From: Protonemura montana
Taxonomy: Eukaryota; Arthropoda; Insecta; Plecoptera; Nemouridae
DNA: 64,000 nt
Direction of reading: 5' to 3'
Assembly (NCBI GenBank): GCA_947568835.1
Contig: OX387612.1
Span: forward strand, 10,666,001 to 10,730,000
Part shown: piece after piece, positions 1,693 through 64,000 of the stretch
Position numbering within the stretch: the stretch's first letter is position 1
How the letters are laid out: every line of letters starts with the position of its first letter
Translations under genes and position numbers: made by a program
Notes under the pieces: generated by a model
What the model was told of the DNA's origin: nothing
Database searches by the model: none
What the model saw: the letters and a program-made list of their open reading frames with translations, nothing else

Positions 1693-4600
1693 CTGCTGGC
1701 ACAGAAGATAAGCGTCATGACGTTGGTGCATTTCTGGTGTTGGATTGATTGATTATTGGGGTTTAACGACGAAATGTTTTGACAACTAGCCGTGTGTCCC
1801 TGGTCTAATAGCGTCAGTGAATGAGTGGATGACGGTGAGGATAATAATGAATCTTATCTTGCTTAGAAAGAAGGAGGGGAAACCCGGTGCTGGGCACGTA
1901 GCCTACTCCTGTCGAAGAGCACCAAGAGGACCACCGGCTTAACGTACCTTCCGAAGGACGGTACAACTCGAACAACAGGATTCCTCCACAAATCCATGCT
2001 GTCGAGAGGTTGATAAGCAAGACGAGTGAAGTTGGTTTACTAACTTTCATCCTTCCAGCCTCTCTCCCGAACAGAACTGGTCATGTGTATGATGGTAACC
2101 CATCCAATACCTGACCCAGCGCAGTTTTGCTTAACTTTCATCCCTCCAACCTCTCTCCCGAACAGAACTGGTCATGTGTATGATGGTCACCCATCCAATA
2201 TCTGACCCAGTGCAGTGTTTCTTAACTTTCATCCCTCCAACCTCTCTCCCGAACAGAACTGGTCATGTGTATGATGGTCACCCATCCAACACCTGACCTA
2301 GCGTGCGCAATGTTCCTTAACTTCGGGGATCTCTCGAGAACCGGTTTTTCCAACACGTCAAACCGTTCGGTATTTGTGGTGTTAAACGAGGTATTATTTT
2401 GTTAACGGGCTCCATGGCAATGGTTTTATGTAGTCGTTCAATTGGCGAATGATGATACGGATGCTAGGGATATCTAGCTCAATATAAAAACACTTAATAT
2501 TAAACATATTTAAATTTACTACTGTATCGATTTACTACTCTACTGATTTACCACTGTGCCGATTTCGAATGGTTGACAAAAACACCCGAGCTTTATTAGT
2601 ACAAAGTACAATTAATTAAATAATTACCCAAGGGATGTGATGGGTCACAAGCAGCTAGCAAGAGTCGGGCTCGGCTCTCAGGTGCAATTAGTTTGCCGAC
2701 TGCCTGATTGTCCCCCGGTAATAACAGAGGAAACCTCTGTCCAGGCAAGTTACCAAAATAAACAACAGGCCTTGTTCTCATTTAAATCAGACAATATTGA
2801 CCTTTAAAATACCTCTGTTAGATTGGGCAACACAGCAAAGTTGGTCGAGTCAAGACAGATTAAAATGTTAACACCTGAGAAGATAAACACAATCAAAACC
2901 AAAACCCATCTGACTGCAAATAAAAAAAATAATGTATCATGAGTTGCTGAAACTTTGAACCATAATACCGAACGTTTTGTCGTGTTGGAAGCACTGGTTC
3001 TCATGAGATCAGTGAAGTTCAGCAACACTGCGTTGGGTCAGGTATTGGATAGGTGACCATCATACACATGACCAGCTCTGTTTGGGAGAGAGGTTGGAGA
3101 TATGAAAGTTAGTACAGTGACTGCACTCGCCTTGCTTATCAACCTCTCGACAGCATGGATTTGTGGAGGAATCCTGTTGTTCGCGTTGTACCGTCCTTAG
3201 GAAGGGACGTTAAGCCGGTGGTCCCCTTGGTGCTCTTCGACAGGAGTAGGCTACGTGCCGGCACCGGGCTTCCCCTCCTCTCTTCTAAGCTAGGTTAGGT
3301 TCGTTATTATCCTCATCATCATCCACTCATTCACCGAAGCTAATAGACCAGTGCCGCATGGCCAGATGTCATAACAGTGCGTTGTTAAACACCAAAAATC
3401 AATAAATTAGAACTATGATGAACCACCAATTTCACTTTGATCAATATCTCAAAACCATTAAAATATCAATTATTGACATGAATTATTAAACTGCAAGAAC
3501 AAATAACTGGTCCAACTAACTCATATCAGTAACAACGGCTTTAACAAGCCAATAACATAGTCTTGTGAGCAGCGTGTAGCGGCTGTCAGCTGCTAATGGT
3601 ATTAGTTTTCTAGAAATGGCCGCCATACACTCACTAGACAACATCTATATGGCGTAGCGTATCGCTGGTATGAATTATTCAGAGGGACACTTCGTCGAGT
3701 TCGTGGGGACACGGGGACGACCGCGGTTTTATTTCATTTTGCGGCTGTGTATCGCCGAGTGGTAGAGTTGTTCCAAGAACACTTCCGATGACTCAGGGTG
3801 TAGAACGTTGTGCGATTAGTTCTATAGAAACGACTGGCCTGTTAGTTGGAAAATTATCACCGTATATACGGTAATGATTTTTAATCATTTGATTTATAAA
3901 GAAGACACGAGTTTAAGAACTATCATAATTTGTTTCTGGTTTGTATAAGACAGTGTGCTTGATTTTTTATTTCATTTTGCCACATCGTTTATTTTTTGTT
4001 TGAAATATGCTCCTTTCATTCTGGTGGGCATACAATTATGGTAATTAGCCGTTATTTATAAACATACTTTATGACACAAATAAACTGGCAAAATAACACG
4101 CCTTTTTTGCTGGGAAGATAAAATATTACAGGACATTAATATAAAATTCACAAAACAAACGGCTCCACTAATGAACAAAACGCAGAAGATTAACAGACTT
4201 TTGTGCTGGAAAAGGGTAGTGAATGAAATAGATACGAAATAAAAACCACACATGTATCATATTTTGTGTTCCCGCAATGTGACTTTCATTTGCCACGGGG
4301 AACACGTGAAAGTAGCACTGGGACAGAGTCACATGCCCAGTCGAACACGTGAAAGTTGCACTGGGGCAGAGTCACATGCCCAGTCGAACACATGAAAGTT
4401 GCACTGAGACAGAGTCACATGCCCAGTCGAGCACGTGAAAGTTGCACTGGGACAGAGTCACATGCCCAGTCGAACACATGAAAGTTGTACTGGGGCAGAG
4501 TCACATGCCCAGTCGAACACGTGAAAGTTGCACTGAGACAGAGTCACATGCCCAGTCGAGCACGTGAAAGTTGCACTGGGACAGAGTCACATCCCTAGTC

Positions 4601-7600
4601 GAACACGTGAAAGTTGCACTGGGGCAGAGTCACATGCCCAGTCGAACACGTGAAAGTAGCACTGGGACAGAGTCACATGTCCGGTCGAACATGTGAAAGT
4701 TGCACTGGGACAGAGTCACATGGCCAGTCAAACACGTGAAAGTTGCACTGGGACAGAGTCACATGGCCAGTCAAACACGTGAAAGTTGCACTGGGACAGA
4801 GTCACATGCCCAGTCAAACACGTGAAAGTTGCAATGGGACAGAGTCACATGCCCAGTCGAACACGTGAAAGTTGCACTGGGACAGAGTCACATGGCCAGT
4901 CAAACACGTGAAAGTTGCACTGGGGCAGAGTCACATGCCCAGTCGAACACGTGAAAGTTGCACTGGGGCAGAGTCACATGCCCAGTCGAACACGACATAG
5001 AGGAGAAGAATTGGGCAGAGGATAAAAAATGATATGTTGTGATAATTTACTGACAGCGAATAAAATAAAAGTTCGAGAAATAATAACACACAAATAACAA
5101 AATGGTCTCAAGTGACTTTAGCAAAGTTTTTCTATTTATTTCAACTGCCACTCAGAAGTTTGACGCTTTATTTGAAAATCGTGCTCGGTATTTCAACAAC
5201 TTTTAACAAGGTGTTGAAGTTAAAAGTTTTGCTGGTTTATCTCTCACTAGTGCTTTTATAGTTTTCCTTTCCGCCGCTCAGTTCCTACAAAATCAGGTTA
5301 AATGTCGGTAGTTCAACAAATTTACACCAGACAGACTTCAATATGTCGTTGCTAGAAAGTAGTGCCATTGTGTTGATAGATGGTCAGAAGGACATCATTA
5401 AAATGTAAAGCTTTCAGCTGAGCTTGGTCCCGGTAGGCGCCACCTGATGGCGCTAGCCGCCTTCAACCTCCACAATTAAATAGTTGCGACTGCAATTATT
5501 GATATTTCTATATCAATAGTTGAGGTAAGCATTTATATGAGCTAATTGAGTGCAAAATTCTTTTGGTGGTGGAATGCGTGGAAGGTGATAGGAGATAGTT
5601 TGGAGAAGTTGAAGTTAAGGTTAAAACATGGATAGGAAATTTAATTGATAGAAAAAAAATTAGGAAAGGAAGGCATTGGGATTGTAGAGAGATATGTTGG
5701 TGAGTGGAATTGTGATGTGGTTCGGACGAAAAAGGGATGAAAAATGTAAAACGTTTTTGTGAATTTATAAAAGAGCGGATATGAATGGAAGAACGGAAGA
5801 AAATTCTCAGACATTTAACATAATTATATAAACCTGTTTGAAATAATATAAATATATTATTTAAATAAATCAGTTTTTAAAAAGATTTGCAGCGAGGGTG
5901 ATGTTGTCTAGCAGCATCATCCAGTTGTGATGGTAAAATTTATTTATTTGTGGTGTTTAACGACGCACTGTTTTGACAACTGGCCATGCGGCACTGGTCT
6001 AATGGCGTCGGTCAATGAGTGGATGATGATGAACTTAACTTAGCCTAGAAGGGAGGAGGGGAAACCAGGTACCGGCACGTAGCCAACTCCTGTCGAAGAG
6101 CACCAATGAACCACCGGCTTAACGTCCCTTCCGAAGGACGGTACAACGTGAAAAACAGGATTCCTCTACAAATCCATGCTGTCGAGAGGTTGATAAGCAA
6201 GGCGAGTGAAGTTGCTGTCCTAACTTTCATCCCTTCAACCTCTCTCCCGAACAGAACTGGTCATGTGTATGATGGTCACCCATCCAATAACTTACCCAGC
6301 GCAGTGTTGCTTAACTTCGGTAATCTAACGAGAACCAGTGTTTCCAACACGCCAAACCGTTCGGTGAACTGGTAAAAAAAAAAAATCGTTGGTGAATTTT
6401 TTTAAATTAGCGCTTTTGGTAGAATGCTTTAAACTGTATTTAATCAAAATGATATCAGAAACCTAGTGTCAGTCTATTAGACACGAATAATTATCTAAAT
6501 CAATCTGGTGACCCAAATCGAATGTTTGAGTCACAATTGCGAACGCTGAAAATTTAATCAAATTCAGCTGCATCTCCATTAAGTGCCGTTGAAAGCCTGG
6601 CAATGATAGAATGCAACGGTATTGTTTTAGAATTGTCATTGCGACCGAATTCAATTCGGCAGAAATCAAATAATAACGCCAGTCCGTAATGCACTAATTA
6701 ATTTGTATTGACGCGTTATTGCTGACAATGCATGATATCAATTAATTGGACATCAACTCGACCAATTATGAATTGGATAAATTATATGTGGACAGAACCG
6801 GGCCATTTGGGACAACATTTTTTGTAGTTTTTGTATTTTTTGCAATGACAGCTTAACAGAAGCGCTTTGGTCGTCTGGTAGGACAAGCGAAGTCAAGTTT
6901 CATCTTTTGTTGATTCAAACTAATTGGTAATTTATTATATTAATAATTATTGGTAATAATTTATTTTTTATTTTTCATATGCTTTTTAAAAGTTTAAAAA
7001 GCATATGAAATATATTTAAAAAAATCCCGATAAAAAAAACACAAGCGTATTTATATTTAAGAGGAAGTTAGGAGAATGAACTGCAAAAGGAATCTAAGAA
7101 TAAATACGGAGGAAAGAAATTAAGAAGCAAAGAAATAAAAAAAGAGTATTTGTAGAATTAATTAAAATAACAAGGAATGATTATGAAGACTGCAGGTAAA
7201 TGAAAGTGGTAATGAGGTAAATAAGAAAAGGAATGAAATGGAATTAAGAAACAAATTTGAGAAAACGGAGAAGTACGAGGATCATAGAAGCAAAGAGAGA
7301 ACAGAAGGAAGACATAATTAGAAATAAATTGAAATAACAAACAAAAACAACCTACACAAGTATTTCTAAGAAAAATTCAGAACTAAAATGGGAAAAATTG
7401 AGAGAAAGAAGAAACAATAAACAGTGGAATGTGTGGATGAGAAAGGAGATAGATTAGAGAATTTCAGAGGAAAAAATGGATTTAAATTAATAGTAAGAAA
7501 CGAGAAAAGAAAGATTCTAGAAAGAGGTGTTGGAAAGTGGAATGGAGCCAAAGGGATGAATGAAAAAGCGATGAAAAATGTGAAAGTTTGAGCAAATTTC

Positions 7601-16600: not shown

Positions 16601-19600
16601 CGTAACAAATTCAGATCACCTTGGACTTTTGTTTTTGTTAAAATTAACGGCACTTGTCAAAAAATTAAGCACATTTTCTTATCAGCTGACAGCTGACAGC
16701 TGACAGCTAACAGTTGTTAGTTACAAAAATAGAAATCAGTTTAAACAGGGACACAAAGACAAAGTAAACGGAGAAGAGTTTTACCATTAAACTAAATAAA
16801 TTGTGTGATTCAAGTAAAAACTATTTTTTTACTGCAAAAAGTGAGATAAACCAGAGCACTCCCAGTTTAAGAATAATTTATGGATGATTTTAGAGAAACT
16901 ACATTTATACTCTCTGGATCGTGGAACAAAGATGGTATCCAGATTTTCTCTTGTTTCTTTTCATTTTGTGATAAATTTGCATTTCGGCCAAACGCGTTGG
17001 ATTTCACTTAGTTGGACATCTTCCAAAAATCCCATGATGTTCCGCTCGAGAAATTCTGAGTAATCGTTAATCGATTCTGAAACTACAAAGCACCGACTTT
17101 TTTCTTTCAACACCAAGCGATGACCGTTGTGCGCAAGTTTCAACCACGTTTTGCGTCTAGCAGATTTTAAGGAACTCTGACTACGCCTGTAAACTCAATG
17201 GTGTCTCCCATTTGCACCCAAATTATTCTCCCGTGGGTCCCAACGTTGAAACAACAAGCTAGCATTGAAAAAAACCCACACAAAAAAAAATTACAAGAAA
17301 ATAACACGGCGTGAAGAAAAGATAAGCCATGACCAGTACATTAAGTGTCTATTTGAAAATGTCTGAACTACCGAAATTATGACAAAAACTATTTTTAACT
17401 TGGTTTTGAATGCTAAATGAAGAACAACTTGATTTCCCAACGTCTCGTAACTTGTACCTGTTACTTTATCAAGGGTAAAAGCAGTCCTGACAATTTTCCA
17501 ATAACAAAATAACCACATAAAATTATAACAATTACCAAGTTCAAGCTTCCTAAATGCATCTAAATAAAATAATCAGGGTCAATAACTTAAAAACTAATGT
17601 ATTTTGTATTTTCTGAAATTATAATCCCAAAGAAATTGGTATGCATTGCCTTGATAAAGTAACAGGTACAAGTTACGAAACGTTGGGAAATTAAGTTGTT
17701 CTTCACTTAGCATTCAAAACCCATTTCAAATAGTTTTTGTTAAAACTAGTGCTAAGTTTAGATCAATTAGATATGAGTCTAGAAACTATCAGATATAAGG
17801 ATTTTTGTGATAAGGATTAAATGATGGTCAACCACGAAAAAAGTACGCAATCAAGTCACAGTGGTGCAAAAAGTCACTGAATATAATAAAAAAAAACTGA
17901 ATCAAAATGCGCCCTCTTGATATTTTCACGAAAATCAGCGTTCGCTTTGAACTTCGAAGAGCGCGGCTTCCTTTAGTCGCAAAATTTATGGGATTTTCTT
18001 TACCCCTTTTTGCAACCGTTTGAAGTCCAATTGAAAGTCCTCTCTGAACTTCATATAGCGTGAACGTCTTGAGTTGTCCGGGACAACCGAGTTGGATATA
18101 CTTGCGTTGCCTGCGTTGCTTCCCGCACGGGCTACATTTATTGTATTTTTATGGTAAAAAACCGTTGAGTGTAGGTTGTAGGTAGAGAAACAACGTTAAT
18201 GTTACAGTCTCTGCGTGAAAGATGGCCGCCAAATGACTACTTTACCAACAAAAATGCAGAGTACTGGAACATCACGTTAAGTGGAGCCACTGTAACATGA
18301 AATTTAATTTCGATATTTCTCGTAGGTTAACTCGCTTTTTAATATCGTTACGTGTTTATCAATCGTTGAGGTAAACATTGATGAAGATTTTTTGAGCATG
18401 AAAAGTCTCAAAAGCGAGTTAACCTACGAGAAATATCGAAATTAAATTTCATACGACAGTGGCTCCACTTAACGTGATGTTCCGGTACTCTGCATTTTTG
18501 TCGGTAAGGTAGTCATTTGGCGGCCATCTTTCACGCAGAGACTGTAACATTGACGTTGTTTCTCTACCTAGAACCTACACTCAACGATAAAACCATGGGA
18601 ATCTGTGTGATTGATTTTTATGTTTTAACGACGCATTATTTTGATAACGGGCCATGCGGCACTGGTCGTATGGTTTCGATGAATATGTCAATTATGATGA
18701 GAATGAAGATTAACGCTAACTCAGCCTAGTAAGAAGAAATGTATGTAATCCGGTGCCGGCACGTAGCCTACTTCTGTCGAAGAGCACCAAAGGGACCACC
18801 GACTAAACGTCCCTTTCGAAGGACGGTACAATTACTGTTCATTTTTTATTTATTTAGCGCTTATATTTAATTCTTTTATTAATTAATGCTTAAAACAACA
18901 CTTTTTATAGCATCTACAAATCCAAATATAAAGTTTATTTAAATGTCTGTCAAAATTAAATAGAGTGCATTCCCAGATGATGCCGGATGCAAGGCAAATA
19001 ATTATAATATTTTGTTTTATTAAAACGCACACGAAGAAGGACTTGACGTGAAGTATTTTCTCTTTGATGGCTTAACATCTTAGAGATTCCATGGCCAGAA
19101 GCAATCTTCCTGCTGGTCTGCCCACCGCAGAGATCTTGGCATGCTTCAGACGGGAAGAGAAATCCAGCAAGTTTGTGCTCCGAATACAAAGTGGGGTTGG
19201 AAATAAATTCTACATAATTTTCTTCCATTTTTCGAAATGATGACGCAGTAGCGATGAATGACGGTTCATAACGTGCAATCACAAATGCAATGAGTTTAAG
19301 TAACATCGGAGTGCGTTCAGTTCTGAATGACAATTTCTCTCAAAACTTGCTTCAAAAACAATTATTTGTCACAAAATAAGTCAATTCAGTAATGCAATCC
19401 CCATGTTCAAGCCTGAGATCTCCTGAATGCAGGACAGACATGGCGCTCTCACTACCAAAATAGCCGGCCACCAGGATCGAACCTGGGACCTTCTGAATGC
19501 AATGCAGACATGGCGCTCTCACTACGAGGATAGCCGGCCACTAGGATCGAACCTGGGACCTTCTGAATACTAGGCAGACATGGCGCTCTCACTACCAGGA

Positions 19601-22600
19601 TATCCGGCCACCAGGATCAAACCTGGGACCTTCTGAATACAAGGTAGACATGGCGCTCTCACTACCAGGATAGCCGGCCACCAGGATCAAACCTGGGACC
19701 TCCTGAATACAAGGCAGACATGGCGCTCTCACTACGAGGATAGCCGGCCACTAGGATCGAACCTGGGACCTTCTGAATACTAGGCAGACATGGCGCTCTC
19801 ACTACCAGGATAGCCGGCCACCAGGATCAAACCTGGGACCTCCTGAATGCAAGGCAGACATGGCGCTCTCACTACGAGGATAGCCAGCCACCAGGATCAA
19901 ACCTGGGACCTTCTGAATACAAGGTAGACATGGCGCTCTCACTACCAGGATAGCCGGCCACCAGGATCAAACCTGGGACCTTCTGAATACAAGACAGACA
20001 TGGGGCTCTCACTACCAGGATAGCCGGCCACCAGGATCGAACCTGGGACCTCCTGAATTCAAGGCAGGCATGGCGCTCTCACTACCAAGATAGCTGGCAA
20101 TCAGGATCGAACCTGGGACCTTCTGAATACAAGGCAGACATGGCGCTCTCACTACCAGGATAGCCGACCACCAGGATCGAACCTGGGACCTCCTGAATGC
20201 AAGGTAGACATGGCGCTCTCACTACCAAGATAGCTGGCAATCAGGATCGAACCTGGGACCTACTGAATACAAGACAGACATGGCGCTCTCACTACCAAGA
20301 TAGCTGGCAATCAGGATCGAACCTGGGACCTTCTGAATACAAGGCAGACATTGCGCTCTCACTACCAGGATAGCAGACCCACAATAATCTGAAACAATTG
20401 AAAACTCACCCGTCTTTTGGATCGAATGTTATCCAACTGGCGTTGTGTGCACTCGCCGATGCTTTGACTTCCCCACAGTTCAATGCCCACACGTGCGTAG
20501 GTGAACGTCATCGAGCAGATCGGCAGGAAGTAGGTCAGCACCATGAAGAACACGTTGTACCTGTAAAAACATTCAAATATTGTTAGAAGTCATAAAGAAA
20601 GTTGTCAAAAACTTTGGTCGATTCTGCAAAGCAAGATTAAACGCTGGTTAAAATCACCCCTAAACGGCTTTGGTGTAATCGGTCATAATAAATTCCTGAC
20701 ATGCTTTGAGGCTCATGAAGCTAAAAATGATTTTAACAGCCACGACTAGAACTGAATTCCACGTTTTTCGTACCATTTGGTGATGATTTTTGATATGCGC
20801 TGTCATAATGGAAATAAAGAGTTGAAAATCGACATGATTTACGATTAATAAAACTTTTGGTCTACTGCCAAAGATGGCGGAATCTTGAGTTGTCTTCACG
20901 GCGTCTTGGAGCCAAATGTACAATGCGATTTAAAAAATCAGCATACAGAATGCATAACCATAAATTAACGCAAAAAATCGATAAAAAGCTTTGTTCTATT
21001 TCGGTAAATTAAAAAAGTAATGTGTCTCGCAATGTTTTTCTTAGAATTGAATTTACTTGTATGGCAAATTGCTGAGGAAACTTGCTGGCCCATTTGTATT
21101 TGATTTCTTCAATAAAACTGTCTATAGAACCAATGACCCGTGGGATTTATAAAAGCAATTAAGTATTTAAAACCTCGCTGTAATCTATGCATAACCTCAT
21201 TGTTTAAATGAAAAAATCTACTTAATTTCCCCTCCCAATTTGCATGGAGATGATCGCATCGCCCATTAAATGGGGTAGTCACATTTTTAACAATGCCATT
21301 TGATTGTTCAGATTTGTAATGATCGTGCGCTGGATGGAGGGGGCGGGAGGAAAACGACAGGGAAATTACTCTACTTTTCAGCTACCGAATGAGACAATAA
21401 TATGGCAATTTAAAACCGTTGAGAATTTCTGTAGCGAGACCTACACGTCGAGGCAGCGGGGAAAATTGGAAAATGTTTAAAGAGCGATGTGCTATTCAAT
21501 TAGCGAACAAAGTAGGACGGATTAAATTCTATTCGTGGGCACTTTTAATGGATTTTATCCGTAAAAGGTCAATCATTTGAGCTTTATTTGTAGCAAAAAA
21601 CGTGATGGCTATTTATAGAGGTAACATAAAAATGAAATAAATGATTTGATCAAATATTTTTTATTGTGGAAGGTTTTAAATTTATGGCTATAGCTATTTT
21701 TTTTAAAGCCTAGCTGATACCAATAGGCAATAAGCCAATTATTATTATTTGTGGTGTTTAACGACGCACTGTTTTGACAGCTGGCCATGCGGCACTGGTC
21801 TAATGGCGTCGGTGAACGAGTGGATGATGATGATGATGAGGATGATGATGAACCTAACCTAGCCTAGAAGGGAGGAGGGGAAACCCGGTGCCGACAAGTA
21901 GCCTACTCCTGTCGAAGACCAATGGGACAACCGGCTTCACGTCCCTTCCGAAGGACGGTAAAACGCGAACAATAGGATTCCTCCACAAATCCATGCTGTC
22001 GAGAGGTTGATAAGCAAGGCGAGTGAAGTTGCTGTACTAACTTTCATCCCTCCAACCTCTCTCCCGAACAGAACTGGTCATGTGTATGATGGTCACCCAT
22101 TCAAGACCTAAACCAGCGCAGTGTTGCTTAACTTTCATCCCTCCAACCTCTCTCCCGAACAGAACTGGTCATGTGTATGATGGTCACCCATCCAATACCT
22201 GACCCAGCGCAGTGTTGCTCAACTTCGGTGATCTAACGAGAACCGGTGTTTCCAACTTGACAAACCGTTCGGTGCAATAAGCCAAACTACAGACACAAGA
22301 GAACAACGGGGATTGCCTTGTTTCAGAGCTTGTAGGGTGATGTCAACCACCCTTGTCTCAGACAAATAAGCGATTTATTCAGAGGGCTGTAGACTCACTC
22401 GAAGAGGAAACCTTGTCAAGTGGATGTTGGTCATTCAATCGACTCGATTTAGTTGTTCGTAACATTGGTCTCGTTGGTCAATTGACTAAAATTCGACATT
22501 TAGGAGACATTTGGACCCGTTTTTTTTACTCTTTCCTGTCTGAACTGTCGAATATTATTCGAATTTTTATCTTTTTATTTCAAAATAGTTAAATGCAAGT

Positions 22601-25600
22601 ATTGGCAAATGCTTTCACTGTTATTATACTTGAAATGTTTAAAAAAAATTATATAATAAAGAAATTATTACAAATACTTTAAAATTCAATGTTATTTTTA
22701 CTATAAATTGGTATATTTTTTATGAAACTATTAGTTACCCTTGAAAAAGAAGGGTTAAAATTTGCCTATATCGACTTTTACAACTTAAATACCTACTTAC
22801 ACTGAATGCAAATTTATAATGCACTTTAAAAATTTTCAGCACTGAAAGACACTATAACTACACACAACTATAAGTTGGATCTCTAGCTCACAGAAACATC
22901 TGAATTTCACTGCATGTGATTGGAAGTCGTCATGGCAACAGTTTCAACAAAATGTTCAACTATAAGTTGGATCTCTAGCTCACAGAAACATCTGAATTTC
23001 ACTGCATGTGATTGGAAGTCGTCATGGCAACAGTTTCAACAAAATGTTCAACTATAAGTTGGATCTCTAGCTCACAGAAACATCTGAATTTCACTGCATG
23101 TGATTGGAAGTCGTCATGGCAACAGTTTCAACAAAATGTTCAACTATAAGTTGGATCTCTAGCTCACAGAAACATCTGAATTTCACTGCATGTGATTGGA
23201 AGTCGTCAAGGCAACAGTTTCAACAAAATGTTCAACTATAAGTTGGATCTCTAGCTCACAGAAACATCTGAATCTCACTGCATGTGATTGGAAGTCGTCA
23301 TGGCAACAGTTTCAACAAAATGTTGAACTATAAGTTGGATCTCTAGCTCACAGAAACATCTGAATTTCACTGCATGTGATTGGAAGTCGTCAAGGCAACA
23401 GTTTCAACAAAATGTTTAACTATAAGTTGGATCTCTAACTCACAGAAACATCTGAATTTCACTGCATGTGATTGGAAGTCGTCATGGCAACAGTTTCAAC
23501 AAAATTTTCAACTATAAGTTGATCTCTAGCTCACAGAAACATCTGAATTTCACTGCATGTGATTGGAAGTCGTCATGGCAACAGTTTCAACAAAATGTTC
23601 AACTATAAGTTGGATCTCTAGCTCACAGAAACATCTGAATTTCACTGCATGTGATTGGAAGTCGTCATGGCAACAGTTTCAACAAATACTGCAATTAGGA
23701 GGCGAGATTTTGGTAAAACAGGACCAAGGAGGAAAAACGAGGTTCCAGTCTTTGAACCTAAGCAAATAGAATTGTATTTAAAAGCTTATGCCCGTGGTGA
23801 ACCGACGTAGAAATTTAAGAAAAAAAATGCTTTGCAAATAAGCCATGAAACTAATTTAAAGATCGTATCAGAAAGGGTAAAGAGGGATTGAATCAAAATG
23901 AGTGTAAACACGGGCACGCGCACGCGGTGGTCGCTGCTGGCACCGATAAAAGTTTTTCAATCAGTTTCGTCGGTCTGCCGTTTGAAGTGCATTTTAATTA
24001 CCCGTCGAGCTCAGTGGTGCCAACCTCCGCGTTAGTCCGGACAGGAAAACTTGCTGCCAACTTAATTAGCATGAAGCGCAACAAGCTGAAACAAGTTTGC
24101 CAACTATTGAACGCTACATTTATTTGTGATACCCGGGTTTTGTGGATGGAATTTTAGTTGCAAATTGTGGTTGGTTGAATTTTGTTGGATATTTTATGTA
24201 AAAATCGTTAATGTTTTTTTTCGGTGTCTTTGGTTAAAAAGGCTCTTTTAATTTTTGTTATGATAATTCTTAGTATCTACAAAATACAACTTCACAATAT
24301 TTTTGGATTTTTTTACGAAACGTTGATAAAAAGTGGTTACATCTTAAATTCATACGAATTTATGAAAGAAATCAATTAAAAAAAATATATATATTATACT
24401 TACGTTCAGATAAAAGAAAGATGGACCTGCAAATATAACTGAAATCGTTTCAGATTTCTTGCATCGTTACTTGCATTGGATATTTTGCTCTTAAATGGCT
24501 ATGCAAATTTTTTAAATTTTTTCGTGTCTCTTGATAAAAAAAAAAAATAATAATAATAATAACACTGAGCTGACTTTTTTTTAAATGAACTAGGTAATTA
24601 TTGTTATAATTTTATGTGGTTCTTTTGTTATCGGAAAATTGTCAGGACTGCTCTTACCTTTGAAGAAGTAACAGGTACAAGTTACGAAACGTTGGGAAAT
24701 TTAGTAGCCCTTTACTTAGCATTCAAAACCCAGTTCAAATAGTTTTTCTAAAAAAAAATTTTTTGTTCAAAGAAATTCGCCACCGATAACTTTTAGAGTG
24801 AAATGCAGATTTAGTCACATATTCTTAAACACTGATAACCTTCTTTACTGAATTTTCCGAATTTCCTTTTGATAACAATATAAATCTGGAAATTAACAAT
24901 TCAGAGGCGAATTTTTTGTAGATAAATTTTTTATTTAAAAATCAACTCATGTGTTAGAAGATCACCAGCTACATTTTGAAAGTGTGTAAAGCTGGTTTTT
25001 ATTCGAAAAAATGTCTTAAAACTGTGCTTTTCTGCGGTAATCTTCTCAGAGTATCCAGGTGGAGGAGCCGAGTTTGCTCTGCGGGTTGCGTCTGGAAAAA
25101 TTCCTTAGCAAATGACTGGAAAAAGTTAATCTTTTCTTGGCGATTTATTTTTGGAAAGTTCACATAGAAAATTCACTAAAAATTTCACATGTTCGTAAAC
25201 ACCGATAATCGTTCTCACTGCATTTCCCGAATTTCCTTTCGCTCCTAAAGTATATGTCGTTTAAGGTTGCCGTGTTTTCCTGAGAAATTATAACACTAAA
25301 ACATCTTAGATAATATTTTGCAAACATAAGTTTAGGGAGCGCACTCATCTCAAGACCCTTAAAAACGAAACAATTTTGCCAAGTATTTTTAGTTTTGTTT
25401 CAAAAACTCGCGGTTCACAGTTCTCCATCTGTTTTATTTCTCCATCTTGAGCTGGCGCCCGCCACGATCTCAAGCTCGAGGAAGAAAATCGACTTGAAAA
25501 GTTCTATCATTACCGAACAAAACCATTTAAAATTAGTTTTATACAATTTTAGCTGTTTTAAAATATCTGCCATGCGCTTTCACCGCTAATTGCAATGAAA

Positions 25601-28600: not shown

Positions 28601-31600
28601 GATAGTAAATTGAATAAATTGACAAAGTTGCTTTAAACAAAAAATAATTTGTATTTACGTATTCCAATTCCATTTTTTGTTTTTAGCTTTTTCGACATTA
28701 GGTTTTTATCTTGCTTCATTTCTAAAATACTTTCAAAGAAACTGAAGAGAGAATACAAAAGTGTGTGCTTGTACAAAGTGTACAAGTTAAATTGTAACTT
28801 AGAAACAGTTCTATGCATCGAACGGTGTGGTCTATTTTTAAAAGCGAGACACCCGAGTTTTTGGGATAGCCTTTCATCACAAAACTAAGAAGGTGAAACC
28901 AAACATTTTAAAACTTGTCTGCACTTTAATGTTCACTGTGGTAGGAAACACAGCGGTGCGACACATTTACTTTTTGAGAGCTCTTATAGGAAATTACTTT
29001 ACAATCTAAATTCATTTCCTTTCATTGGTCTAAAATCTGTCGTGACCGGCATTATCGGGCAAATACATAAGTGCAAAAAAATAAAAAATAAAATAACGGT
29101 GCTTCCTCAGTGAAGAACAACTAAATTTCCCAACGTTTCGTAACTTGTACCTGTTACTTTATCAAGGGTAAGAGCAGTCCTGACAATTTTCCAATAACAA
29201 AAGAACCACACACAATTATACTACAATTTATCTACTAACTTCCCACGTCTCTCCCCATAGAGATTAATTATGATCGTTTTAAGACTCATGTCTACTTTAT
29301 CTCACCTTAGATACGAGTCTAATAACTAGTCCAACGCTGCATCCCACTTGACTCGCTAAAAATGCATGTCACGCAAAGTGAATGCCAAATTAATTCCATC
29401 AAATATCTGATGAAATTATATTTCCCGAACGGTAAGTGGAACTCGGACTGCGTCTGGTGCTGAATAATTCGATTGAAGAAATTCTTCGCGACGCCATTAG
29501 CCTTGCGGGGGAAGAACTTTGCCCGGGGAATTGTTGGCGAGCTAGAAGTTGTGGCCGTTGTCGAAATTGTTCGCGCTCGAATAATTGTCAAGACAATTTA
29601 CTCAGAGTGCTGGTCGTTGGGAATTACATAAGTTGGGAGCTGTTTAAACGGACAATATCTTACATCATTACATCTATCGTACTACCAGAGCGCTAATGTT
29701 AAATTATGCTATGCTAATGTTTTAATGCTAATACCAAATAAAAACAAATATGGACGATGCTGCAATATGACTCATCGTCGACATTTATTTATACATTGCT
29801 CGCAAATTAATTACATTTTAATCCGTTTTACTTTCAAATTAATCTGTAATTATGCTAACCTTGACTGGTTTACCGATATTACTCATCGTATCGGTATTGC
29901 ATTGATAAATGTATGGCAATATTTTGATTCGTAATAATTTAACTGTAAAGGTTAAGGTAAAGTAACTGTAACTGTGTAACTGTAAAGGTAAAGGTTCAAA
30001 AGGGCGGCCGCAAGCGCCATCGGGTGGCACCGACCGTTACCACTTGTTGCCGACCTCGTTTGCTCAGCACCAAGCGCTATCGGGTGGCACCTACCGTTAC
30101 CACGTGTTGTTGGCCTCGTTTGCTCAGCAGCAAGTGCCATCGGGTGGCACCTACCGTTACCACGTGTTGCCGGCCTCGTTTGCTCAGCAGCAAGCGCCAT
30201 CGGGTGGCATCTACCGTTATCACGTGTTGCCGGCCTCGTTTGCTCAGCAGCAAGCGCCATCGGGTGGCATCTACCGTTATCACGTTTTGCCGGCCTCGTT
30301 TGCTCAGCAGCAAGCGCCATCGGGTGGCACCTACCGTAACCACGTGTTACCGGCCTCGTTTGCTCAGCAGAACGTTAAGCCACGAATACTCTGCCAGAAA
30401 TAACTAAATGAGACATAATACTCCATTTTTGTTCCAGTCAAGAAGTCATTTGCGGTTATCTTTCGCAAAGAAAGTTTAACTTTACTTGATACTTGATACT
30501 TGATACTTTTGTATCCCCTTTAAAAAGTCTCTGATTCAACGTATCACGCTCGGCAATTATTTGCTTAACGACTGCGTCATGTTTGCCTAACGAAGCATCG
30601 CGTTCATAAAGCGTACAAACACGCTCGACGTAAACGACTGTTACTAAGTCAACATTTGCTTAGGATTCTCACACTTAGAGCCGACAAAGTTTTGTGTAGA
30701 GAACAGAATCAGTGAGAGGGTGAAAGTCAGAAGGTGAAGATGAATGGAAAGCAGGCAACTCGTGAGGCATTATTGGATGTTTCTTGATGATTTCACTCAG
30801 AATGTTTGTGTTGTGTTGTTTTTGACAAACAATTTGCTTCTAGATATTCTCTGAGCCGGGAAAATACATTTTTTAGGACAAAGCACCTTAAAATCGCTTG
30901 CTGGTTTCAGCTCCAATACCTCATCCAATACCTGACCCAGCGCAGTGTTGCTTAACTTTCATCCCTCCAACCTCTCTCCCGAACAGAACTGGTCATGTGT
31001 ATGATGGTCACCCATCCAATATCTGACTCAGCGCAGTGTTGCTCAACTTTCATCCCTCCAACCTCTCTCCCGAACAGAACTGGTCATGTGTATGATGGTC
31101 ACCCATTCAATACCTGACCCAGCGCAGTGTTGCTTAACTTACATCCCTCCAACCTCTCTCCCTAACAGAACTGGTCATGTGTATGATGATCACCCATCCA
31201 ATACCTGACCCAGCGCAGTGTTGCTTAACTTTCATCCCTCCAACCTCTCTCCCGAACAGAACTGGTCATGTGTATGATGGTCACCCATCCAATATCTGAC
31301 TCAGCGCAGTGTTGCTTAACTTTCATCCCTCCAACCTCTCTCCCGAACAGAACTGGTCATGTGTATGATGGTCACCCATTCAATACCTGACCCAGCGCAG
31401 TGTTGCTTAACTTACATCCCTCCAACCTCTCTCCCTAACAGAACTGGTCATGTGTATGATGATCACCCATCCAATACCTGACCCAGCGCAGTGTTGCTTA
31501 ACTTTCATCCCTCCAACCTCTCTCCCGAACAGAACTGGTCATGTGTATGATGGTCACCCATCCAATACCTGACCCAGCGCAGTGTTGCTCAACTTTGGTG

Positions 31601-34600
31601 ATCTAACGAGAACCGGTGTTTCCAACTTGACAAACCGTTCGGTGCAATAAGCCAAACTACAGACACAAGAGAACAACGGGGATTGCCTTGTTTCAGAGCT
31701 TGTAGGGTGATGTCAACCACCCTTGTCTCAGACAAATAAGCGATTTATTCAGAGGGCTGTAGACTCACTCGAAGAGGAAACCTTGTCAAGTGGATGGTGG
31801 TCATTCAATCGACTCGATTTAGTTGTTCGTAACATTGGTCTCGTTGGTCAATTGACTAAAATTCGACATTTAGGAGACATTTGGACCCGTTTTTTTTACT
31901 CTTTCCTGTCTGAACTGTCGAATATTATTCGAATTTTTATCTTTTTATTTCAAAATAGTTAAATGCAAGTATTGGCAAATGCTTTCACTGTTATTATACT
32001 TGAAATATTTAAAAAAAATTATATAATAAAGAAATTATTACAAATACTTTAAAATTCAATGTTATTTTTACTATAAATTGGTATATTTTTTATGAAACTA
32101 TTAGTTAAACCCTTGAAAAAGAAGGGTTAAAATTTTACAACTTAAATACCTACTTACACTGAATGCAAATTTATAATGCACTTTAAAAATTTTCAGCACT
32201 GAAAGACAGTTTAAAACTTGACTACACGCTTTTTGGTTGACTCTTATTTGTACAATGTCAATGAGTTTTTTTAATTTTGTTCAACTGCAAAAAGTTCTCC
32301 TATTGGCGGAAGTCGGGTGAATGGAAATCCACTAAAAAATGATCTGTACTATAAAACAAAACTATAAGTTGGATCTCTAGCTCACAGAAACATCTGAATT
32401 TCACTGCATGTGATTGGAAGTCGTCATGGCAACAGTTTTAACAAAATGTTGAACTATAAGTTGGATCTCTAGCTCACAGAAACATCTGAATTTCACTGCA
32501 TGTGATTGGAAGTCGTCGTGGCAACAGTTTCAACAAAATGTTGAACTATAAGTTGGATCTCTAGCTCACAGAAACATCTGAATTTCACTGCATGTGATTG
32601 GAAGTCGTCATGGCAACAGTTTCAACAAAATGTTCAACTATAAGTTGGATCTCTAGCTCACAGAAACATCTGAATTTCACTGCATGTGATTGGAAGTCGT
32701 CATGGCAACAGTTTCAACAAAATGTTCAACTATAAGTTGGATCTCTAGCTCACAGAAACATCTGAATTTCACTGCATGTGATTGGAAGTCGTCATGGCAA
32801 CAGTTTCAACAAAATGTTCAACTATAAGTTGGATCTCTAGCTCACAGAAACATCTGAATTTCACTGCATGTGATTGGAAGTCGTCATGGTAACAGTTTCA
32901 ACAAAATTTTCAACTATAAGTTGATCTCTAGCTCACAGAAACATCTGAATTTCACTGCATGTGATTGGAAGTCGTCATGGCAACAGTTTCAACAAATACT
33001 GCAATTAGGAGGCGAGATTTTGGTAAAACAGGACCAAGGAGGAAAAACGAGGTTCTAGTCTTTGAACCTAAGCAAATAGAATTGTATTTTAAAGCTTATG
33101 CCCGTGGTGAACCGACGTAGAAATTTAAGAAAAAAAATGCTTTGCAAATAAGCCATGAAACTAATTTAAAGATCGTATCAGAAAGGGTAAAGAGGGATTG
33201 AATCAAAATGAGTGTAAACACGGGCACGCGCACGCGGTGGTCGCTGCTGGCACCGATAAAAGTTTTTCAATCAGTTTCGTCGGTCTGCCGTTTGAAGTGC
33301 ATTTTAATTACCCGTCGAGCTCAGTGGTGCCAACCTCCGCGTTAGTCCGGACAGGAAAACTTGCTGCCAACTTAATTAGCATGAAGCGCAACAAGCTGAA
33401 ACAAGTTTGCCAACTATTGAACGCTACATTTATTTGTGATACCCGGGTTTTGTGGATGGAATTTTAGTTGCAAATTGTGGTTGGTTGAATTTTGTTGGAT
33501 ATTTTATGTAAAAATCGTTAATGTTTTTTTTCGGTGTCTTTGGTTAAAAAGGCTCTTTTAATTTTTGTTATGATAATTCTTAGTATCTACAAAATACAAC
33601 TTCACAATATTTTTGGATTTTTTTACGAAACGTTGATAAAAAGTGGTTAAATCTTAAATTCATACGAATTTATGAAAGAAATCAATTAAAAAAAATATAT
33701 ATATTATACTTACGTTCAGATAAAAGAAAGATGGACCTGCAAATATAACTGAAATCGTTTCAGATTTCTTGCATCGTTACTTGCAATGGATATTTTGCTC
33801 TTAAATGGCTATGCAAATTTTTTAAATTTTTTCGTGTCTCTTGATAAAAAAAAAAAATAATAATAATAATAACACTGAGCTGACTTTTTTTTAAATGAAC
33901 TAGGTAATTATTGTTATAATTTTATGTGGTTCTTTTGTTATCGGAAAATTGTCAGGACTGCTCTTACCTTTGAAGAAGTAACAGGTACAAGTTACGAAAC
34001 GTTGGGAAATTTAGTAGCCCTTTACTTAGCATTCAAAACCCAGTTCAAATAGTTTTTCTAAAAAAAAATTTTTTGTTCAAAGAAATTCGCCACCGATAAC
34101 TTTTAGAGTGAAATGCAGATTTAGTTACATATTCTTAAACACTGATAGGTAACCTTCTTTACTGAATTTTCCAAATTTCCTTTTGATAACAATATAAATC
34201 TGGAAATTAACAATTCAGAGGCGAATTTTTTGTAGATAAATTTTTTATTTAAAAATCAACTCATGTGTTAGAAGATCACCAGCTACATTTTGAAAGTGTG
34301 TAAAGCTGCAAGTGAAAAAATTCCATTTATTTTTTCGTTGTTTTTATTCGAAAAAATGTCTTAAAACTGTGTTTTTCTGCGATAATCTTCTCAGAGTATC
34401 CAGGTGGAGGAGCCGAGTTTGCTCTGCGGGTTGCGTCTGGAAAACTTTCTTAGCAAATGACTGGAAAAAGTTAATCTTTTCTTGGCGATTTATTTTTGGA
34501 AAGTTCACATAGAAAATTCACTAAAAATTTCACATGTTCGTAAACACCGATAATTGTTCTCACTGCATTTCCCGAATTTCCTTTCGCTCTAAAGCATATG

Positions 34601-37600: not shown

Positions 37601-40600
37601 GAACAGGCAAGCTTAGCTCTTTGGAGAAGTAGACAGCATGAATATTGTTTTCGTTTCGCTTGTTTTATTGGTTTAATCAAAGTGAATTGGCCGTCGCCTT
37701 GTGATTTATTTCATGTCGTTTGAAAGATAGTAGTTGATATTGGTTGAATTTAGAGAAAATAAGTTTTGACATGTGCGCTGATTGGGTCAATTCTTAACAT
37801 TGCTGAACGATTGTCTTTTCCGGGTGAATTTCGAAGATGCAATAGAAAAAAAATTAATGTTCGGTTGGGAGCGCTCTCGCTTGGAGCCGGTGAACCCGCC
37901 CTGGTGCAGGCCAATCGAAATCGCTATTAATTAAAAGCTAATGATAGTAAATTTAATAAATTGACAAAGTTGCTTTAAACAAAAAATAATTTGTGTTCAC
38001 GTATTCCAATTCCATTTTTTGTTTCTAGCTTTTTCGACATTAGATTTCTATCTTGCATCATTTCTAAAATACTATCAAAGAAACTGAAGAGAGAATACAA
38101 AAGTGTGTGCTTGTACAAAGCGTACAAGTTAAATTGTAACTTAGAAACAGTTCTATGCATCGAACGGTGTGGTCTATTTTTAAAAGCGAGACACATGAGT
38201 TTTTGGTATAGCCTTTCATCACAAAACTAAGAAGGTGAAACCAAACATTTTAAAACTTGTCTGCACTTTAATGTTCACTGTGGTAGGAAACACAGCGGTG
38301 CGACACATTTTCTTTTTGAGAGCTCTTATAGGAAATTACTTTACAATCTAAATTCATTTCCTTTCATTGGTCTAAAATCTGTCGTGACCGGCATTATCGG
38401 GCAAATACATAAGTGCAAAAAAATAAAAAATAAAATAACGGTGCTTCCTCAGTGAAGAACAACTAAATTTCCCAACGTTTCGTAACTTGTACCTGTTACT
38501 TTATCAAGGGTAAGAGCAGTCCTGACAATTTTCCAATAAAAAAAGAACCACACACAATTATACTACAATTTATCTACTAACTTCCCACGTCTCTCCCCAT
38601 AGAGATTAATTATGATCGTTTTAAGACTCATGTCTACTTTATCTCACCTTAGATACGAGTCTAATAACTAGTCCAACGCTGCATCCCACTTGACTCGCTA
38701 AAAATGCATGTCACGCAAAGTGAATGCCAAATTAATTCCATCAAATATCTGATGAAATTATATTTCACGAACGGTAAGTGGAACTCGGACTGCGTCTGGT
38801 GCTGAATAATTCGATTGAAGAAATTCTTCGCGACGCCATTAGCCTTGCGGGGCAAGAACTTTGCCCGGGGAATTGTTGGCGAGCTAGAAGTTGTGGCCGT
38901 TGTCGAAATTGTTCGCGCTCGAATAATTGTCAAGACAATTTACTCAGAGTGCTGGTCGTTGGGAATTACATAAGTTGGGAGCTGTTTTAACGGACAATAT
39001 CTTACATCATTACATCTATCGTACTAACAGAGCGCTAATGTTAAATTATGCTATGCTAATGTTTTAATGCTAATACCAAATAAAAACAAATCTAACGATG
39101 CTGCAATATGACTCATCGTCGACATTTATTTATACATTGCTCGCAAATTAATTACATTTTAGACCGTTTTACATTCAAATTAATCTGTAATTATGCTAAC
39201 CTTGACTGGTTTACCGATATTACTCATCGTATCGGTATTGCATTGATAAATGTATGGCAATATTTTGATTCGTAATAATTTAACTGTAAAGGTTTTCTCA
39301 AAAGGGCGGCCGCAAGCGCCATCGGGTGGCACCGACCGTTACCACTTGTTGCCGACCTCGTTTGCTCAGCACCAAGCGCTATCGGGTGGCACCTACCGTT
39401 ACCACGTGTTGTTGGCCTCGTTTGCTCAGCAGCAAGTGCCATCGGGTGGCACCTACCGTTACCACGTGTTGCCGGCCTCGTTTGCTCAGCAGCAAGCGCC
39501 ATCGGGTGGCATCTACCGTTATCACGTGTTGCCGGCCTCGTTTGCTCAGCAGCAAGCGCCATCGGGTGGCATCTACCGTTATCACGTTTTGCCGGCCTCG
39601 TTTGCTCAGCAGCAAGCGCCTTCGGGTGGCACCTACCGTAACCACGTGTTACCGGCCTCGTTTGCTCAGCAGAACGTTAAGCCACGAATACTCTGCCAGA
39701 AATAACTAAATGAGACATAATACTCCATTTTTGTTCCAGTCAAGAAGTCATTTGCGGTTATCTTTCGCAAAGAAAGTTTAACTTTACTTGATACTTGATA
39801 CTTGATACTTTTGTATCCCCTTTAAAAAGTCTCTGATTCAACGTATCACGCTCGGCAATTATTTGCTTAACGACTGCGTCATGTTTGCCTAACGAAGCAT
39901 CGCGTTCATAAAGCGTACAAACACGCTCGACGTAAACGACTGTTACTAAGTCAACATTTGCTTAGGATTCTCACACTTAGAGCCGACAAAGTTTTGTGTA
40001 GAGAACAGAATCAGTGAGAGGGTGAAAGTCAGAAGGTGAAGATGAATGGAAAGCAGGCAACTCGTGAGGCATTATTGGATGTTTCTTGATGATTTCACTC
40101 AGAATGTTTGTGTTGTGTTGTTTTTGACAAACAATTTGCTTCTAGATATTCTCTGAGCCGGGAAAATACATTTTTTAGGACAAAGCACCTTAAAATCGCT
40201 TGCTGGTTTCAGCTCCAATACCTCATCCAATACCTGACCCAGCGCAGTGTTGCTTAACTTTCATCCCTCCAACCTCTCTCCCGAACAGAACTGGTCATGT
40301 GTATGATGGTCACCCATCCAATACCTGACCCAGCGCAGTGTTGCTTAAGTTTCATCCCTCCAACCTCTCTCCCGAACAGAACTGGTCCTGTGTATGATAG
40401 TCACCCATCCAATACCTGACCCAGCACAGTGTTGCAGACAATTTAAAACAGTTTAAAAAAAAATTAGCAATATGCAAATTTAAAAAAAATAACGGTTGCT
40501 AAAATTCTTGATTTTCACAAAATCAAACAAAAAAACTTGAAACAAAAAATGAATGGGTAGAAAATGGGGTTCACTTACAGATATTCCTGGTAGCTTTCGT

Positions 40601-40794: not shown

Positions 40795-40841
40795 CTGTGG
40801 GAATAAAACATGTCTTGATTACTTAAACGTCTTCAAAATAG

Positions 40842-41266
40842 CACTGTTTTGACAAAGGGTCATGCGGCACTGTTCTTATGACGTCAGTGAACGAGTCAAT
40901 GATAATGTAGATGATAATAAAACTAACCTAGCCTAGAAGGGAGGGGGGGAAACACGGTGCCAGCACGTTGTATACTCCTGTTGAAGAGCACCATGGGGAC
41001 CACCGGCTTAACGTCTCTTTCTAAGGACGGTACAACGCGAACAACAGGATTCTTTCACAAATCCATGCTGTCGAGAGGTTGATAAGCAAGGCGAGTGAAG
41101 TTTCCGTACTAACTTTCATCCCTCCAATCTCTCTCCCGAACAGAACTGGTCATGTGTATGATGGTCACCCATCCAATACCTGACCCAGCGCAGTGTTGCT
41201 TAACTTTTATCCCTCCAACCTCTCTCCCGAACAGAACTGATCATGTGTATGATGGTCACACATTTC
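40842..41266 (-). mobile_element. 5S-rRNA-derived SINE, 5' tip missing
   Basis: Begins on the plus axis with gcactgttttgacaaagggt and runs through the body to two head units; lies just upstream of receptor exon 40579-40794. Confidence 0.85.
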
Positions 41267-44164: not shown

Positions 44165-44690
44165 GCGCAGTGTTGCTTAACTTTCATCCCTCCAACCTCT
44201 CTCCCAAACAGAACTGGTCATGTGTATGATGGTCATCCATCCAATACCTGACCCAGCGCAGTGTTGCTTAACTTTCATTCATCCTAAATTTCTCCCGAAC
44301 AGAACTGGTCATGTGTATGATGGTCACCCATCCAATACCTTACCCAGCGCAGTGTTGCTTAACTTCGGTAATCTAATGAGAACCGGTGTTTCCAACACGC
44401 CAAACCGTTCTGTGGTCACCCATCCAATACCTAACCCAGCGCAGTGTTACTTAACTTTCATCCCTCCAACCTCTCTCCCGAACAGAACTGGTCATGTGTA
44501 TGATGGTCACCCATCCAATACCTAACCCAGCGCAGTGTTACTTAACTTTCATCCCTCCAACCTCTCTCCCAAACAGAACTGGTCATGTGTATGATGGTCA
44601 CCCATCCAATACCTGACCCAGCGCAGTATTGCTTAACTTCTGTGATCTCATGAGAACCGGTGTTCCAAACACGCCAAACCGTCCGCTAAC
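44165..44690 (-). repeat. 5S-SINE head array, about five units, with an internal 5' tip
   Basis: 91-bp units. One stretch (about 44365-44412) contains the SINE 5' tip aaccgttctgtgg followed directly by another head, showing an element joined or inserted within the array. Confidence 0.85.
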
Positions 44691-62499: not shown

Positions 62500-63165
62500 T
62501 TGATTTGTGCGTCGGGTTAATGACGGACAAAGAGCCGTGTAGCACTGGCCTCATGGCGTCATTCAATGATAAAATTATGATAACGATAAACCTTACCTAG
62601 CCTGGAAGGGACAATAGGAAATCTGGTACCGGCACAAAGCCTACTCCTGTCGAAGAGCACCAAGGGGACCACTGGCTTAACGTCCCTTCCGAAGGACGGT
62701 ACAACGCAAACAACAGGATTCCTCCACAAATCCATGCTGTCGAGAGGTTGATAAGCAAGGCGAGTAAAGTTGCTGTACTAACTTTCATCCCTCCAACCTC
62801 TCTCCCGAACAGAACTGGTCATGTGTATGATGGTCATCCATCCAATACCTGACCCAGCGCAGTGTTGCTTAACTTTCATCACTACAACCTCTCACCCAAA
62901 CAGAACTGGCCATGTGTATGATGGTCACCCATCCAATACCTGACTCAGCGCAGTGTTGCTTAACTTTCATCCCTCCAACCTCTCTCCCGGACTGAACTGG
63001 TCGTGTGTATGATGGTCACCCATCTAATACCTGACCCAGCGCAGTGTTGCTTAACTTTCATCCCTCCAACCTCTCTCCCGAACAGAACTGGTCATGTGTA
63101 TGATGGTCACCCATCCAATACCTGACCCAGCACAGTGTTGCCTAACTACGGTGATCGCATGAGAA
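62500..63165 (-). mobile_element. 5S-rRNA-derived SINE with four head units
   Basis: The tail tgatttgtgcgtcgggttaa is at the left, the body at 62570-62780, then four 91-bp head units with small variants and a partial 5' tip at about 63145-63165. Confidence 0.88.
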
Positions 63166-64000
63166 CAGATGTTTTCTGCAGACGTTCAAACATGTAACGC
63201 ATTGTGAATTGCATCTAGTAAAATATTGTGAATGTTTTAATACGGTCAGTTCCTCTCATAGAAATGCGTTTTAAAATATAAATACAATTCACATCGTTAT
63301 CTTTTGAAATATTTAGCAAGTCATCGTTTTCAAATGACAGGATGTAGAAAAGTCTCGCTTCTTCCATTGTACTTTACAAACTGTGGATCGAAGCTGAGAA
63401 AGACGAAGCAAACGCCGCATGACTCGTGTCACATTCTAGGCTGATAGCCGAACATTATTTGATTAATCAAAAGTCCCTTGTGGCTCGGCGCTAGCAAATA
63501 TACAATTATCAAAGGTCTAATTTGCAAGTTTGTTAGGAAAATCCGATTCTTAAATTAGATCACCTTGAAAGTGAACAACGAATCGAATGTTTCTGAGATT
63601 CCTGGACCGACCAGCAGATTCGTTCGCGTACTTTGTCAGTTTTATTATTTGCATAATTTCTTCAATCCTTGCAATTCAGCGATCAGGGAATTAGAGCAGT
63701 CTAAATGCAATACCTGATTTTTAGATGTTTTTATGAATTGTCTATTTTGTTGTTGTTTAGGGAAGAACTTGATATTGACATAAAGATCATTCATCATTAA
63801 GAATCATCAAGAATCTTTAGGAATTAATTACTGTTCGAAATGCAAAGTAAGCTTGACCTGGAACCCATGGCTGACCGGTTAGCGAGACTCCAACGTGGCG
63901 GTCCCAGGGACTTGGTCTTGGTAAGAATCACCAAATCGGTAATGGCACCTTGACTATTCAGATGCCAGTACAGTAGCAGATACTTAAATATTTTTTTTTT
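63166..64000. other. Sequence to window end, nothing firmly recognised
   Basis: At 63855-63925 TGGCTGACCGGTTAGCGAGA and GGTCCCAGGGACTTGGTCTT look faintly like a tRNA-type head (A-box-like, no good B box). No CTLD exon was seen. Confidence 0.4.

Follow-up and report, generated by a model that had tools for sequence, protein, structure and literature searches.

What kind of element is the 535-bp repeat on the minus strand at 21739-22273 of the window (by which we mean the whole stretch of 64,000 nucleotides that was analysed), and how did the region that looks like its promoter come to be doubled? The repeat proved to be a complete SINE, headed by a segment derived from 5S rRNA, as the first-pass annotation had proposed, although the tandem 91-bp promoter units in this copy went unmentioned there. 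Its parts follow one another in the order 49-nt 5' segment, two 91-bp units, body, GTCGTTAAACACC and (AAT)n, and the body, GTCGTTAAACACC tail, (AAT)n and perfect 12-bp duplication that the annotation had described were each found where it had placed them:

22274..22285, minus strand: 5' target-site duplication TTGGCTTATTGC, 12 bp, perfect, read from the sequence
22225..22273, minus strand: 49 nt at the 5' end of the 5S-derived head, within the Rfam 5S match at 22153-22273
22134..22224, minus strand: promoter unit 1 (91 bp), its promoter activity being predicted only
22043..22133, minus strand: promoter unit 2 (91 bp), a tandem copy of unit 1
21766..22042, minus strand: body, first letters AGTTAGTACAGCAAC, with AAGTTA common to the body start and the A-box region
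21753..21765, minus strand: tail motif GTCGTTAAACACC
21739..21752, minus strand: ACAAATAATAATAA, the element's end, with (AAT)n to 21739
21727..21738, minus strand: 3' target-site duplication TTGGCTTATTGC, 12 bp, perfect

Both GATCACCGAAGTT with the A-box region and GGTATTGGATGGGTGACC are present on the minus strand of the element, and ACCGAACGG is the start point, exact or near, of most of the copies that were fetched. The AAGTTA common to the A-box region and the start of the body is, to judge from its placement, likely the point of the first duplication.

Is the head truly derived from 5S rRNA, on the minus strand, as had been claimed? The first 121 bases of the element (22153-22273) match the Rfam 5S_rRNA family at 54.9 bits, against a cut-off of 38 and over the full model (1-120), and four other 5S matches were found in the window, at 6245-6365, 31523-31643, 44298-44413 and 44568-44686. 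The best 5S genes of the host score approximately 117 bits. The annotation had suggested aligning the heads to 5S rRNA and, with one host 5S gene as the reference, 86 of 117 aligned positions of the head consensus were identical (13/21 over 5S positions 1-21, 25/28 over 22-49, 35/48 over 50-97 and 13/22 over 98-119), which together with the Rfam score bears the claim out. The alignment score was 39.5, compared with at most -1.0 for 1000 shuffled heads. The C-box core, TGGATGGGTGACC, is identical in the head consensus and the host gene, and the predicted folds of the two have the same overall branching and differ in the letters of the terminal stem; a scan of the consensus for a TTTT run found none. 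A tRNA or 7SL origin of the head, which the annotation had set against the 5S reading, was ruled out: Rfam at E values up to 1 returned no tRNA or 7SL match in the 21739-22273 element (its non-5S matches there were two snoRNA families, both below their cut-offs), and ARAGORN found no tRNA in the consensus. Judged by the sequence of its head, the element belongs to the SINE3 class of 5S rRNA-derived SINEs.

The genome in which we searched for further copies comprises 258.5 Mb in 34 contigs. For the two-unit form the best 40 of 3504 first-look candidates were scored: besides the copy in the window these included 39 more, at 91-94% identity. Searches with the one-unit and three-unit forms as queries were likewise scored for their best 40 each, of 6241 and 8305 candidates, respectively. 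The 40 two-unit copies, which were chosen for similarity, diverge from their own consensus by 0.015-0.048 with CpG sites excluded. Of the 40 two-unit copies, 39 were tested for target-site duplications, among them the one in the window, with a single partial copy set aside; perfect duplications of at least 8 bp flank 23 of the 39, whereas 200 re-pairings of the flanks gave a mean of 0.35 and a maximum of 2.2; for the one- and three-unit forms the matches were 7, 8 and 7 bp, from the three window copies only and without a control. The exact 28-base extended tail occurs at 672 places in the genome (reversed control, 0). Copies of the family lie scattered through the genome, and two-unit copies with target-site duplications exist among them, a point on which the annotation had let its reading depend. 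Other copies in the window are:

1757..2371, minus strand: family copy, three units
2967..3405, plus strand: family copy, one unit
5937..6365, minus strand: family copy, one unit (Rfam 5S match 6245-6365)
18624..18831, minus strand: copy lacking its 5' part, with only body and tail present (76% identical)
40841..41263, minus strand: family copy truncated at both ends, adjoining a 7tm_1 exon
44165..44686, minus strand: array containing two heads, with 5S matches at 44568-44686 and 44298-44413
62526..63174, minus strand: family copy, four units

The exon, at 40578-40832 on the minus strand, encodes part of a receptor of rhodopsin type (7tm_1, E 3e-9) and directly adjoins the truncated SINE. Of 94 window frames of 75 codons or more, 68 lie outside minisatellites and 59 of these were scanned, with 7tm_1 matches in three. 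At 44165-44686, and likewise in locus L111, a second SINE head follows directly after the C box (GTGACC, then ACAGAACGG or ACCGAACGG), which constitutes a second kind of internal duplication.

How widespread is the doubling of the promoter region? In this family the 5S promoter region is duplicated as a 91-bp unit (AAGTTAAGCAACACTG occurs twice in the consensus, 91 bp apart), of which SINEs with both ends contain 1 to 15, and arrays contain up to 29. Where only one unit is present, the sequence is GAAGTTAAGCAAC in the A-box region and GAAAGTTAGTACAGCAAC at the start of the body, with AAGTTA at either end of the future unit; because AAGTTA bounds the unit on both sides, we suggest that the first duplication may have occurred by slippage or template switching at this motif. 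Genome-wide, with up to 1 mismatch, there are 23,702 unit-unit, 7,356 unit-body and 4,263 head-unit junctions, and the reversed-pattern controls for all three gave 0. The last figure is not an element count, because the head pattern recurs at 91-bp steps in one array on contig C2. From the other two we estimate approximately 31,000 units, equal to 2.8 Mb or about 1.1% of the genome, and approximately 4.2 units per unit-body junction, an estimate that presumes each unit to end in a unit-unit or unit-body junction and that misses more diverged units.

We fetched 20 array loci out of 40 scored places, which had been chosen as matches to an array. The stretches read hold 7-29 units, and all 20 loci hold 7 or more; all are thus tandem arrays of at least four SINE-derived units, the definition that applies to SINE-derived satellites (sSats). 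Nine of the 20 run from a head through 8-15 units into a body that reaches the 3' end; the remaining 11 are without one or both of the head and the complete-3' body, and the longest array (L118, 29 units) has neither. Among the nine head-to-body elements, perfect duplications of at least 7 bp flank two and of at least 6 bp flank four, compared with 2/72 and 7/72 in a re-paired control, the best being a perfect 14-bp duplication around a 15-unit element (L106).

Have the promoter boxes of these units been maintained by selection? In 285 array units the mismatch per site was 0.017 in the A box, 0.035 in the intermediate element and 0.024 in the C box, compared with 0.010 and 0.013 in the rest, so that by this measure the boxes are not better kept than the remainder of the unit. 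In two-unit copies the A box had the lowest mismatch (0.013) and the intermediate element and C box had the highest. Selection on the boxes is unsupported; the intermediate element and C box vary more than the rest.

The genomic positions of all four groups of copies are non-uniform. Within 10% of a contig end lie 26/38 arrays, 11/39 one-unit, 10/39 two-unit and 19/39 three-or-more-unit copies, the samples being best matches to window copies and the distance being that to the nearest contig end, not all ends being proven telomeres. Arrays lie closer to contig ends than do copies with one unit (p 0.0002) or two (p 0.00006), and no difference in position was found between arrays and three-or-more-unit copies (p 0.26). 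The arrays show the subtelomeric preference by which sSats are also recognised, insofar as contig ends, not all of them proven telomeres, stand for chromosome ends. Contig C16 opens with (CCTAA)n; the other chromosome-sized contigs whose first bases were read do not, and three of them open with N. The (CCTAA)n of C16 fits the arthropod host that the annotation presumed, as does the gene order of the mitochondrial contig C34, which marks the host as a pancrustacean.

Taken together, we consider it quite likely that this is a 5S-headed SINE that is mobilised via its 3' tail by a LINE, and whose 91-bp promoter unit amplifies tandemly into SINE-derived minisatellites. By analogy with the class it resembles, the element would be transcribed by Pol III from the 5S box region, and a LINE reverse transcriptase would read the GTCGTTAAACACC(AAT)n end and insert the copy. 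The first duplication would have taken place between two copies of AAGTTA that lie 91 bp from each other, one in the A-box region and the other at the start of the body, and the resulting dimers would then have been copied as dimers. After insertion, arrays would expand, contract and mix through unequal exchange, chiefly in distal chromosome regions, and such exchange would now and then rearrange the flanking DNA.

The window itself contains what may be an instance of such a rearrangement, in the form of a 9.3-kb tandem duplication in which 23050-31133 aligns to 32360-40435 (8.1 kb aligned, 97.5% identity). Two arrays bound this duplication, beside the receptor exon:

30922..31643, minus strand: hybrid SINE at the duplication junction, containing seven units plus a partial unit, whose head and 5' flank correspond to those at 22 kb and whose 3' flank corresponds to that at 40 kb (Rfam 5S match 31523-31643)
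40224..40435, minus strand: partial unit array at the other end of the duplication

The right flank of the hybrid is that of the 22-kb SINE (96.4%) and its left flank is that of the 40-kb array (96.3%); none of three further comparisons between flanks gave a match. Because the hybrid pairs the right flank of the one with the left flank of the other, we read it as the product of unequal exchange: an array of this kind is expected when two arrays that point the same way recombine unequally.

Is DNA exchange really needed, or could the multi-unit elements be the mobile form, with long arrays copied via RNA and unit number varying by template slippage in reverse transcription? The order of units within arrays bears on this directly. 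When units were coded by 21 variants, each found in four or more loci, blocks were seen to repeat within single loci (L112, for instance, has one eight-unit block twice), and over the 20 loci 15 three-unit words were repeated within loci compared with 2.8 when unit order was shuffled (at most 11 in 1000 shuffles), whereas different loci had 2 such words in common against 3.8 expected. Because words repeat within loci beyond chance and between loci do not, these data support growth of the arrays in place, block by block, and speak against the copying of long arrays, as do the more distal position of arrays relative to one- and two-unit copies and the finding of a perfect duplication of at least 7 bp in only two of nine array elements. 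Nevertheless, copying via RNA would account for the 14-bp duplication around the 15-unit element and for the two-unit copies, which appear to move as dimers: 23 of 39 have target-site duplications, and rare variants are in both units of the same copy in 14 of 132 occurrences (7 sites, 6/38 copies), a proportion that mostly rejects unit-by-unit duplication of these copies after insertion. The two units of a copy are slightly closer to one another (0.0463) than are units of different copies (0.0542; 0/2000 re-pairings as low), and from this slight likeness some conversion or later duplication or exchange is likely. On balance we regard a mobile multi-unit form as the source of the arrays as unlikely. 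Growth in place is, however, not the whole account, for unit divergence in the 20 array loci averages 0.0348 within loci (means of individual loci ranging from 0.012 to 0.056) and 0.0375 between them. Such similar values imply that the arrays did not each arise from a single recent unit, and that inter-locus exchange or older heterogeneity must contribute; fresh local amplification alone falls short of explaining the arrays.

Two further alternatives concern the arrays as such. That they are assembly artefacts or unmerged alleles, and the 9.3-kb duplication with them, is improbable in our view: assemblies do err at tandem repeats, and duplicate copies that are 97.5% identical over 8.1 kb could be allelic, yet arrays were found at some forty scored places, the orders of units differ among the 20 that were read, and the unit-unit junctions number 23,702. 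We give hardly any credence to the alternative that the 91-bp arrays are an independent satellite, of which the SINE captured a piece or which it merely resembles, as the unit is exactly the segment from A-box region to body of the one-unit SINE, with AAGTTA at both ends, nine of the 20 array loci run from head through units to body, and there are 7,356 unit-body junctions. It would be consistent with such a satellite that the other 11 loci do not pair their units with both a head and a 3'-complete body, and that the 29-unit array has neither.

If, as we prefer, the arrays grew out of the SINE by tandem amplification of its promoter unit, then which LINE would have mobilised it? Among the RVT_1 places and tail places compared, no LINE that ends in the same tail was found. 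The RVT_1 profile search covered the best 150 of 1781 first-look candidates, among which were groups of intact LINEs with open frames approximately 1000-1260 codons long, and 100 of the 672 exact tails were compared, all from contig C1 and the first 25.0 Mb of C2; none of these 100 was nearer than 13 kb to any of the 14 RT places on the two contigs (10 in the covered stretch). Tails in a non-SINE context number 118 (reversed control, 4), and among 100 of these, one came nearer than 10 kb to an RT place; it lies 7.7 kb downstream on C4, which is too distant to count as the end of a partner LINE. Another tail locus, L119, was ruled out as a LINE as it is a 5'-truncated SINE copy, and in the window no RT domain was found in the 59 frames scanned. 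The first 1 Mb of C11 is crowded with RT places (33 among the 150 listed, many with long open frames), and these are possibly LINEs aimed at histone or telomere repeats. At the start of the same contig (L089, G000:C11:1-9600), three 5S genes share a repeated unit of approximately 9.5 kb with genes for histones (frames for H3 and an H1-like protein were read), and TTAGG occurs there 98 times.

What would a SINE gain from additional promoter units? Mouse LINE-1 elements have tandem promoter monomers in variable number at their 5' ends, and the present SINE resembles them in its variable count of promoter-bearing units, the promoter here being a predicted one; in LINE-1 it is a Pol II promoter in an autonomous LINE, whereas in the SINE it is a Pol III type 1 region. 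It is conceivable, albeit doubtful enough that we offer it as speculation, that extra tandem 5S control regions add TFIIIA/TFIIIC sites, raise transcription and give more internal start points, such that unit number would be a selfish trait under selection, with the same genome appearing to do likewise with a tRNA-type promoter. Were this true, internal Pol III promoters would be a recurrent seed of satellites. The tRNA-type arrays in question include a 52-bp tandem array of approximately 8 copies at 57764-58179 of the window, the unit of which, with CAAGT at the joins, resembles the segment of a tRNA that spans A box and B box; the repeat also occurs with two units at 42910-43009 and as a single tRNA-Ser-like copy at 16412-16487. 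Rfam gave the array 18.8 bits only, which is under the cut-off, and the arrays look like a promoter doubling of the same sort on a tRNA-type head.

The first-pass annotation had taken the rarity of 5S SINEs in arthropods as a hint of a new family. This argument for novelty is weak, as such SINEs have already been published for Tribolium (SINE3-1_TC), Helicoverpa (HaSE3), Plutella (PxSE4 and PxSE5) and other Lepidoptera, and the insect SINE3 class also includes LaSE2 and CsSE2 (PMC3272025, PMC8010984, PMC10886601; excerpts). In these excerpts, members of the class have a body and a 3' tail, as does the present element, and target-site duplications are given for some of the families; the four tabulated insect families have 532 to 4415 copies, with tails that are (TGA)n twice, (ATGT)n once and in one case not determined, as opposed to GTCGTTAAACACC(AAT)n here. 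A tandemly repeated promoter unit such as that of the present element is undescribed in the excerpted accounts of the insect 5S families in PMC3272025, PMC8010984 and PMC10886601. The element is possibly a new family within the 5S class. The open-licence literature, searched for letter strings of the body, tail and head, yielded one unrelated paper and did not yield the promoter-repeat form, and for the string TTAAACACC there was no SINE title among the matches listed.

The closest parallel to the arrays is found in the SINE-derived satellites of squamates, the restriction of which to squamates is called uncertain by the authors in the excerpted text (PMC10702118). As described there, sSats and the present arrays are alike in having SINE-cut tandem units, few to many in number, with primordial SINE sequence at the ends, in their di- and trimeric patterns and in a subtelomeric preference that is stronger at longer loci. 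They differ in that the sSats of those excerpts derive from tRNA-headed SINEs and ours from a 5S-headed one, that the snake unit comprises box B and part of the body whereas ours comprises the whole 5S box region, that both SINE ends are kept in nine of our 20 arrays, unlike in squamate sSats, and that the host is here a pancrustacean. What is new, insofar as open-licence papers can tell, is a variant of the SINE-derived satellite with a 5S head, outside squamates and with a unit that holds the whole 5S box region. The arrays consequently bear on whether SINE-derived satellites occur beyond the scaled reptiles. One element joins two kinds of repeat here, being a dispersed SINE and, by growth of its own promoter region, a satellite as well, and the thousands of copies in this genome, from one unit to 29-unit arrays, let the birth of a satellite be followed.

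Other repeats abound in the window: minisatellites, with unit lengths from about 43 to 114 bp, are numerous over positions 1-61326. Several of these are present twice, and 43-bp arrays at 4300-4994 and 10347-10817 are inverted relative to each other. Among the contigs, C34 (15,885 bp) is mitochondrial: the COX1 frame in its first 9,000 bases is open under codes 5, 9 and 13 and not under code 2. Nineteen tRNAs were predicted on it, of which two overlapping COX1 were disregarded, and its gene order includes COX1-trnL(taa)-COX2 and A-R-N-S-E-F, the ancestral mitochondrial order of insects and crustaceans.
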